Position numbers and translations under genes: made by a program. DNA of 38,488 nucleotides from NCBI GenBank assembly GCA_021797675.1, contig JAJZZH010000167.1, positions 1 to 38,488 on the forward strand, read 5' to 3'. The notes below the pieces were generated by a model, which searched no databases, was not told where the DNA came from, and saw only the letters and a list, made by a program, of their open reading frames with translations. This document shows, one piece after another, positions 25,978-27,622 of this stretch. The DNA is from Bacillota bacterium (GTDB lineage: Bacteria; Bacillota; Sulfobacillia; Sulfobacillales; Sulfobacillaceae). Positions within the stretch are counted from its first letter, which is position 1. Every line of letters starts with the position of its first letter.

Positions 25978-26820
25978 TCAACGTTTACCCCGACCATGTT
26001 GGCTTTTCCGGCCGATCGCTCCCAAACGATAGGGCGTCCGTTCGAGGTGGGTCATCTCCAATGCGTGAACCTTCGGCGCAAACCGGGCATGGAGGCATCC
26101 ATGCTCAACAGGCCCTGCCCGCCGCAGCATCTCTGAGGGCTGCACGGTTACCCTAGTCGAGAGGCTGCGGGCTGAACCGACGCGGAAATCTTCAGAGGTC
26201 AGAATCTCGTAAGGGGGGCGGTCTTTGGCAGTCATGCCATCTTGGTGAATGTCGGCCTCACGGCGACCCACGAGGGCCTCGTTAGGGTGCATCGACCTCT
26301 CCCCCAGCTGGCTGACTAACTGGCGGGTCCGCATGGGCATGCGTTCAAGACGCCGCGAAAATTCGTCCCGGATGGCGTAGCCAACCGTATCGGAAAGATC
26401 CCTAGTCCCGCCCCCTGAAGCCGTGCGCACGGGGCGTCGGAGAACATCGAACCCCTCCACCAAAGCCGTCGCCTTGGACATCAAGGCCCTAAGGCGACCG
26501 AGGACCTCGTCTAAACTCATCTTCAGTTCTGCCATAAAGACGGGAATACGCAACGACCGTGCAGACTCTACCCCGCGTGCGACAGCTTCCGGGTCCTTCA
26601 CATGGCACAACCCCGTTATCACCGGTCCCGCGATTGGACGGGCAAGGCGATTTTCGGCGGCAACGTCGCCTGATGAAGCCTTGGCAAACCCCACCTCGAG
26701 GCTATCCACGCCCAGACGTGCCAGCTGCGCCGCCATGCCGCACACGATCCGCGCCGCCCCCGGTGCCTGTTTGCCATCGCGCGAAATGGGACCAAAAATG
26801 CAAACCTGCCGCCTCACCAC
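25978..26820 (-). pseudogene. leuA: Decayed 2-isopropylmalate synthase (leuA) with an intact open frame
   Basis: The frame is open for 280 codons from a GTG with AAAGGGGA upstream. The N-terminus still reads VCIFGPISRDGKQAPGAA, then AAQLARLGVDSLEVGFAKASSGD, and VITGLCHV. Further on it reads LSDTVGYAIRDEF, MHPNEALVGRREADIHQDG and RPPYEILTSEDF. These align in order to the working LeuA at 30229 ([70 protein letters not shown]). The HCHNDLG metal and substrate segment and most of the barrel core are missing. No IPMS activity is expected. It sits between ilvN and ilvB in the usual leuA position of an ilv-leu operon. An alternative is a recruited fragment with another role. Confidence 0.82.
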
Positions 26821-26851
26821 GCCGTCCCCTTTCCCGTGGGGTCTCCGCCGG

Positions 26852-27217
26852 CTACGATTTGACGGCGGCCCATCGCGACGGACGACGAATCATCACCGTG
26901 CGTTGACGCGAGAAAGCCTTGCCCGACCCCCGGTACGGAGTGACAACATTGGAGGTCCGCCGAGTCCACGATTGGCCCTGCGGGGCATTGTCGTCTTGGA
27001 TGCTCGCCGATAGCACGTTACGGTGGCGCGAGACTTGGCGAAGTGCCCATAGTGCCTCCCTTGGCCCATCCATGACCAGGTGCGCGGTAATCGTGCCGAC
27101 ATCGTTACGGCTAGCCGAAAATTCGCATACATCAAGGTGGCGTTGGGTGAATAGCACGAGCAATCGGGTCATCGCCCCCTCCTGGTCCTGCATGGTGACC
27201 TTTAACCTGTAACTCAT
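26852..27217 (-). CDS. ilvN: Short ACT-domain acetohydroxyacid synthase regulatory subunit
   Basis: Residues 2-75 form one ACT domain (YRLKVTMQDQEGAMTRLLVLFTQRHLDVCEFSAS, then HLVMDGPREALWALRQVSRHRNVLSAS), as in IlvN or IlvM, the valine-binding subunit of AHAS. The protein is 121 residues; typical IlvN has about 160 with a second domain that is absent here. The last 45 residues are basic and match nothing I know. The ATG at 27217 has GAGAGGAGG upstream. It is the first gene behind the T-box leader, 31 bases before the leuA relic. Odd points are the short form and the gene order, with the small subunit before and apart from ilvB. Confidence 0.72.
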   Translation of the reverse strand: MSYRLKVTMQDQEGAMTRLLVLFTQRHLDVCEFSASRNDVGTITAHLVMDGPREALWALRQVSRHRNVLSASIQDDNAPQGQSWTRRTSNVVTPYRGSGKAFSRQRTVMIRRPSRWAAVKS

Positions 27218-27246
27218 CTGCCGGCCTCCTCTCCTTAAATCTCCGC

Positions 27247-27287
27247 AAAAAATAACGCCCCGCTACTACTTAAAGTAGCAAGGGGCG
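27247..27287 (-). terminator. T-box regulated terminator
   Basis: On the minus strand CGCCCC and GGGGCG close a long stem that contains GCTACTT/AAGTAG, followed by TTATTTTTT. The 5' arm overlaps the region that the T-box motif would pair with in the antiterminator form. Confidence 0.9.
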
Positions 27288-27586
27288 CTCTCGCGCGGTA
27301 CCACCCTTGTTTCCGTTGCCGGAATCTCGTCAACTGATAACGGGAATCACCCGACTTCATCTACTAAGGCCCACAAGCCTGTTCGGGAAGTACGCTCCAG
27401 GGCGAGCAAGTTAAACTTTAAGGTTCGGGCTTCCACCAGTCCCCGATTCGCTCTGACCTCGCCGGATAACCATTCCCTTTCCTCGCGATCCGTGCCAGCC
27501 GCTAGGGCAACCACGTCATGCCTAACAAGATATTGATTTTACAAGCTCAAATTCTCCGCCTGACCCTCACACGCGTTACGGTTCTT
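27247..27586 (-). ncRNA. T-box leader, leucine-type specifier (CUC)
   Basis: T-box leaders read tRNA charging: an uncharged tRNA pairs with the specifier and with the T-box bulge and allows read-through. The minus strand has the T-box sequence AAGGGTGGTACCGCG (27308-27294), an AG-bulge and distal-loop segment of stem I (CAGAGCGAATCGGGG, then CTGGTGGAAGCCC), and a terminator. Stem I pairs GUUA with UAAC and AGGG with CCCU. The 3' side of the internal loop between them is UUGCUCG. The codon CUC (27406-27404) is followed by one base and then the lower helix, as in known T-boxes, and CUGGAGC follows as in the consensus. This points to tRNA(Leu) with anticodon GAG. The fold was drawn by eye. Confidence 0.9.
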
Positions 27587-27593
27587 GGTCAGG

Positions 27594-27622
27594 ATTATAC
27601 ACCCGCCATCCAAACTTGGAAA
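27594..27622 (-). promoter_or_regulatory. Promoter of the T-box/ilv operon
   Basis: TTTCCA (27622-27617), 17 bases, TATAAT (27599-27594) on the minus strand. The -10 is perfect and the -35 has four of six consensus bases. The first transcribed bases carry an exact dyad, CCTGACC with GGTCAGG, about 21 bases apart. Confidence 0.65.

Follow-up and report, generated by a model that had tools for sequence, protein, structure and literature searches.

A leucine-sensing RNA in front of an operon whose own leucine-specific gene has decayed raises the question of what such a sensor still controls and what has become of the gene behind it. Such a case was proposed for the DNA stretch analysed here (the window, 38,488 nucleotides of a 242-contig draft assembly, whose source is related to the mineral-leaching genus Sulfobacillus). 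According to the original prediction, a full T-box with a terminator and a CUC specifier stands ahead of ilvN, a dead leuA, ilvB, ilvE and pheA, and the only intact leuA stands alone without a T-box. The sensor would thus have outlived the gene that it would normally serve and would now tune the shared ilv steps and phenylalanine synthesis. In the T-box family, antitermination by uncharged tRNA is an established mechanism.

The leucine T-box of the operon

A permissive scan of positions 27150–27750 with the covariance model RF00230 gave a full-length match on the minus strand at 27492–27278 (model positions 1–219, 62.6 bits, E = 3e-13). The full leucine T-box occupies 27245–27500 of this strand, and the leader includes the following elements.

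27594–27599, minus strand: TATAAT, predicted −10-like element of the operon promoter (from the sequence; GGCGGGTGTATAATCC is also found in G001, the same-genus relative)
27278–27492, minus strand: T-box leader RNA, RF00230 core (covariance-model match; conserved in the G001 leader)
27404–27406, minus strand: specifier codon CUC, leucine (covariance-model alignment; invariance in 19 leaders; tRNA-Leu(GAG) gene in the genome)
27293–27306, minus strand: T-box sequence AGGGUGGUACCGCG, predicted to pair with the tRNA 3' end (motif scan and alignment)
27279–27309, minus strand: antiterminator helices (fold of −14.1 kcal/mol; pairing across 19 sequences)
27254–27289, minus strand: intrinsic terminator hairpin followed by a T run (−23.6 kcal/mol, z = −4.3)

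None of 200 shuffled sequences folded as well as the terminator, and a terminator-like hairpin recurs in every aligned relative. In the antiterminator, 94% of the cells are paired over 19 sequences, and three pairs are changed on both sides. The UGGN T-box sequence is present, and the antiterminator and the terminator are mutually exclusive in the operon leader. The curated (gathering) cut-off of RF00230 is 93 bits; the operon T-box falls under it and is therefore missed by a default scan, and default Rfam thresholds returned zero T-boxes over the whole window. Eleven T-boxes were found in the genome in total, and only one of them exceeds the cut-off. The practical point is that a default Rfam scan overlooks the operon T-box together with nine of the ten others.

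In the covariance-model alignment, the specifier loop ends in CUC-G directly before the CCCU strand of the helix, which places CUC at 27406–27404. This placement agrees with the pattern GAA...XXXA, where XXX is the codon, given for the specifier loop in the supplementary figure legend of PMC5794164. The original prediction had asked for a fold of the minus strand with RF00230; it was run and confirmed CUC in the specifier loop, with no other codon, and the full T-box and terminator were borne out by the match and the folds described above. A gene for the cognate tRNA-Leu(GAG) was found in the genome.

Two objections to a working leucine sensor may be considered here. That the specifier is some other codon, so that the sensor is not leucine-specific, draws on nothing beyond the general difficulty of placing a specifier by eye; it is at odds with the alignment, with the invariance of columns C95, T96 and C97 among varying neighbouring bases in 19 aligned operon leaders of Sulfobacillus relatives, and with leuS of the same genome, which has its own T-box with the same CUC codon, and it can hardly be taken as a serious candidate. 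Decay of the operon T-box itself, with loss of regulation, is also very improbable. Its 62.6 bits are among the lower T-box scores of the genome, but the specifier, the T-box sequence, the antiterminator and the terminator are all intact, and the leader is 92% identical to that of G001, against 64.5% for the unconserved upstream 5' leader and about 63% for the leuA relic. Judging from this comparison, the operon T-box is under purifying selection.

Genes behind the leader

The genes and gene remnants of the operon are as follows.

26852–27217, minus strand: ilvN-like gene, short acetohydroxyacid synthase small subunit, ACT-like (weak ACT_5 match, E = 0.025; G001 orthologue)
25978–26820, minus strand: decayed leuA, a 280-codon open frame with a GTG start and conserved upstream AAAGGGGACGGC (LeuA homology; in-phase blocks; neutral codon positions)
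25860–26022, minus strand: last stretch of leuA homology, with a frameshift near 26022 and then in the ilvB frame (frameshift-aware alignment; the remnant after the frameshift is weak)
24087–25748, minus strand: ilvB, acetohydroxyacid synthase large subunit, with its own AGGAG and ATG at 25748 (TIGR00118, 646.9 bits; start region compared with G001)
23119–24024, minus strand: ilvE, branched-chain aminotransferase (profile match)
22271–23122, minus strand: pheA, prephenate dehydratase with an ACT domain (profile match)

This is the gene order first proposed, established by profile matches and, for the ilvN-like gene, by the weak ACT match together with better-scoring orthologues at the same place, the one in G001 being 74% identical. 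The ilvB, ilvE and pheA genes are all intact, and their dN/dS values between the window and G001 are 0.09, 0.12 and 0.05, respectively; the standalone leuA gave 0.06 and the leuA relic 0.62, with a normal dS of 0.74 for the relic.

Ahead of its likely ATG at 25748, the ilvB frame stays open for another 83 codons, up to an ATG at 25997 (24087–25997 in the window). Between the latter and the relic stop there is a 20-base overlap, which in principle might let ribosomes that finish the relic continue into ilvB.

The decayed leuA and its reading frame

The relic at 25978–26820 is recognised by LeuA models with E of about 3e-24, but at 85 bits against a cut-off of 599 bits. The metal-binding HxHND block and the GERAGN block are both deleted, and the relic does not qualify as a 2-isopropylmalate synthase, in line with the claim that the leuA of the operon is enzymatically dead; the IHQDG and RDG motifs are retained. 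A whole-gene MAFFT nucleotide alignment with leuA of G001 misplaced the large deletions, and a frameshift-aware DNA–protein alignment was therefore used, which traced LeuA homology through both domains. A protein tree was unusable for placing the relic (branch over 5), and its orthology consequently rests on its position and on silent sites that have diverged as far as those of its neighbours.

Neutrality was assessed by comparing the relic with G001, G010 and G009. The fractions of polarisable positions changed at the first, second and third codon positions are 0.225, 0.245 and 0.254 on the relic branch and 0.10, 0.09 and 0.254 on the G001 branch. The equal third-position rates may serve as a clock, by which the relic would have been free of amino-acid constraint since about the split of the window and G001; as G001 is the only same-genus genome available, this date rests on one comparison. 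The ratio of changes at positions 1 and 2 to those at position 3 is 0.93, with a confidence interval of 0.61–1.63 that leaves room for weak protein constraint, and 60% of the invariant residues are kept against a neutral expectation of 55%. These comparisons show that the enzyme is gone and that no protein constraint is detectable.

By calling leuA merely dead, the original prediction overlooked an unbroken in-phase frame over a freely drifting amino-acid sequence. Ten blocks of at least 10 codons align with 58–71% nucleotide identity, compared with 12–36% in slid registers, and the nine junctions between them carry net shifts of 9, 6, 24, 33, 6, 234, 12, −3 and 237 bases, all of which are multiples of three. 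About 265 relic codons contain no stop, against 3.9 stops expected in a neutral simulation with the observed substitution spectrum (P = 0.017); over 26851–25748, 13 and 14 stops occur in the two remaining frames. The sole frameshift, near 26022, lies at the far 3' end, and the weak remnant that follows in the ilvB frame would explain why this frame is open to 25997. The ribosome-binding region before the relic start codon, AAAGGGGACGGC, is unchanged relative to G001. With an ordinary operon pseudogene the relic shares the loss of protein constraint and the large deletions, but it differs from one in its kept phase and its long stop-free frame.

A plain pseudogene, open and in phase by luck, would nevertheless account for the equal change at the codon positions, for the loss of invariant residues at the neutral rate and for the one frameshift that does exist. 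Against luck stand the P value of the stop-free frame, which would be softened if earlier stops had been removed by large deletions, and, unaffected by this, the nine junctions in phase, whose probability by chance is about (1/3)^9; we consider this reading unlikely. Slightly less probable still is a fast-evolving useful protein other than LeuA, for instance a partner that regulates IlvB, as might be suggested by the open 280-codon frame, the conserved ribosome-binding site, the position in the operon and the retained IHQDG and RDG motifs. Against such a protein, neither the invariant residues nor positions 1 and 2 are conserved in excess, and the half-barrel left by a 78-codon deletion lacks the metal-binding HxHND block.

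Standalone leuA and other leucine genes

Two further features, on the opposite strand, concern the intact gene.

30069–30098, plus strand: predicted promoter of the standalone leuA, TTGACC, 18 nt, TACAAT (a near-identical element lies before the T-box of the standalone leuA in G018 and G030)
30229–31791, plus strand: intact standalone leuA with a GTG start at 30229, the sole 2-isopropylmalate synthase of the genome (profile scores, tree)

The product of the standalone gene scores 715 bits against an equivalog cut-off of 532, has both the catalytic and the LeuA_dimer domains, and belongs to a separate clade (support 100/100), being 91% identical to its G001 counterpart. The third protein of the genome with HMGL and LeuA_dimer domains, encoded on contig C105, is a citramalate synthase. 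A search for a T-box in front of leuA 30229 found none, nor was one found ahead of the standalone leuA in G001, G010, G006, G007, G014 and G015. In G018, G019 and G030, a separate CUC T-box precedes the standalone leuA by a few tens of bases (L058:3247–3454, L067:3264–3470 and L068:3237–3442). The promoter of these T-box-bearing copies, CCATACAATT, is common to the window and G001, and the leaders of the standalone leuA in the window and G001 are only 43% identical, so that no conserved RNA remains there. The T-box may have been either lost from the standalone leuA in the window lineage or gained in the lineage of G018, G019 and G030.

The other genes of the pathway are also outside the operon, with leuC and leuD on contig C105, leuB on C126 and ilvC on C29; with all 11 genomic T-boxes accounted for, none lies in matching orientation before any of these four. 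No leucine-specific biosynthetic gene of the genome remains under a leucine T-box. The core of the original prediction, namely an intact leuA standing apart with its own promoter and a sensor that has been uncoupled from leuA and has outlived it, is upheld by these data; its implication of a new control of the ilv genes and pheA is not, as the relatives demonstrate.

Immediately before the promoter of the standalone leuA, at 30044–30067, lies a 10-bp inverted repeat that is missing in G001. The element TTACCCATACA at this promoter (30086–30096) recurs with one mismatch on the opposite strand where an ammonium transporter gene starts (28726–28736); three matches were counted in the window against 0.27 expected.

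The operon in relatives

The 20 fetched loci of relatives all show the same genes in the same order, and a T-box leader stands in front of 19 of them. A contig search with IlvB gave mostly unrelated IlvB. Most have the arrangement T-box-ilvN-(ilvC)-leuA-(leuB)-ilvB-ilvE-pheA, and in G023 the gaps flanking leuA proved to be ilvC and leuB, giving T-box-ilvN-ilvC-leuA-leuB-ilvB-ilvE-pheA. The ilvC and leuB genes belong to the operon in most genera and are already missing in G010 and G001, both of which have an intact leuA. In 15 of the 20 loci pheA lies behind ilvE; G004 and G007 are without it, and contig ends truncate some of the other loci.

All 26 operonic LeuA found in relatives are intact and open over 390–521 amino acids, so an intact leuA sits exactly at the place of the relic. 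The copy of G001 is among them and retains RDGEQ, HCHNDLG and GERVGN. Its branch in the tree is long (1.16 compared with 0.25 for G010), which indicates that in the genus of the window and G001 the constraint had already begun to relax on the copy in the operon. The window operon has the same CUC leader and the same order of remaining genes as the family operon, but its leuA has decayed and ilvC and leuB, kept in most genera, are gone.

Operonic LeuA of the G004, G005 and G007 genera are about 390–420 amino acids long (L035, L040, L045, L046, L069, L071, L072, L073). They are too short for a full LeuA_dimer domain and may lack leucine feedback control.

Because most relatives with an intact leuA have the ilv genes and pheA under this same CUC T-box, the leucine control of these genes is ancestral rather than acquired after leuA decayed, and the contrast drawn originally between what the sensor would normally serve and what it tunes now does not hold. 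For pheA, too, leucine control is, by this gene order, ancestral in the Sulfobacillus family. There is also a precedent in the ilv-leu operon of B. subtilis, which has a CUC T-box (Marta et al. 1996, as cited in PMC2494555 and PMC5794164), and with it the control of ilv genes by leucine is not a new assignment. As described in these citing sources, the two systems share a leucine T-box, the CUC specifier and a terminator before the ilv genes; the B. subtilis operon contains a working leuA, whereas that of the window is decayed, with ilvC, leuB, leuC and leuD elsewhere and pheA inside the operon.

Proposed explanation

The leader would act, by analogy with its family, as a transcription-attenuating leucine T-box. 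Uncharged tRNA-Leu(GAG) would pair with CUC and with the T-box sequence and stabilise the antiterminator, allowing RNA polymerase to read ilvN, the leuA relic, ilvB, ilvE and pheA, and charged tRNA would leave the terminator in place. In the ancestor, the same leader drove an operon with working ilvC, leuA and leuB. In the window lineage, ilvC and leuB left the operon, 2-isopropylmalate synthesis came to be carried by the T-box-free standalone leuA, and the operonic leuA was freed of detectable constraint, as the comparison with relatives shows; the continued selection on the T-box would reflect the dependence of ilvB, ilvN, ilvE and pheA on it. As a whole, this explanation, with a working leucine T-box, an ancestral leuA operon, a decayed leuA and a sensor under selection, is in our opinion highly probable.

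The relic kept its ribosome-binding site, phase and stop-free frame, for which the likeliest reason, with a chance not quite even, would be that translation through it keeps the downstream genes expressed. The broader idea that selection can preserve a reading frame alone, the relic being a translated spacer whose passage by ribosomes is needed by the genes behind it, is put forward a little more tentatively. Rho was found in the genome. In B. subtilis transcription can outrun ribosomes, which speaks against the spacer idea since translation need not protect an operon there, and in species whose polymerase runs ahead of the ribosomes, a purine bias has been associated with escape from Rho (PMC13323073). 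Such bias was considered as a frame-independent way of Rho avoidance; the relic and its neighbours have no marked bias, and the purine content of the measured genes is unbiased (0.48–0.52), which, for this small sample of genes, suggests that the organism may differ from B. subtilis, with ribosomes shielding the message.

Leucine T-box control of shared ilv genes is already known and hence ordinary. What is new is that no leucine-specific biosynthetic gene is coupled to the sensor any longer and that the relic has preserved its frame only; in a literature search of partial coverage, neither a study of T-boxes in Sulfobacillus nor a report of operon pseudogenes preserved in frame alone came up. 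The locus would provide a dated case in which a regulatory RNA is strongly selected and the gene nominally tied to its signal has decayed, indicating that sensor and pathway-specific enzyme can be uncoupled. The relic is a testable example of a frame kept without its sequence and would be relevant to the question of whether, outside enteric bacteria, operons are shielded by translation from premature transcription termination.

Other T-boxes

In the genome, two class-V aminotransferase genes are each associated with a T-box whose specifier appears to be UCC, for serine (L053:4380–4573 and L057:2600–2797). A group II intron fragment lies beside a thrS T-box at a contig end (L051:4075–4154).
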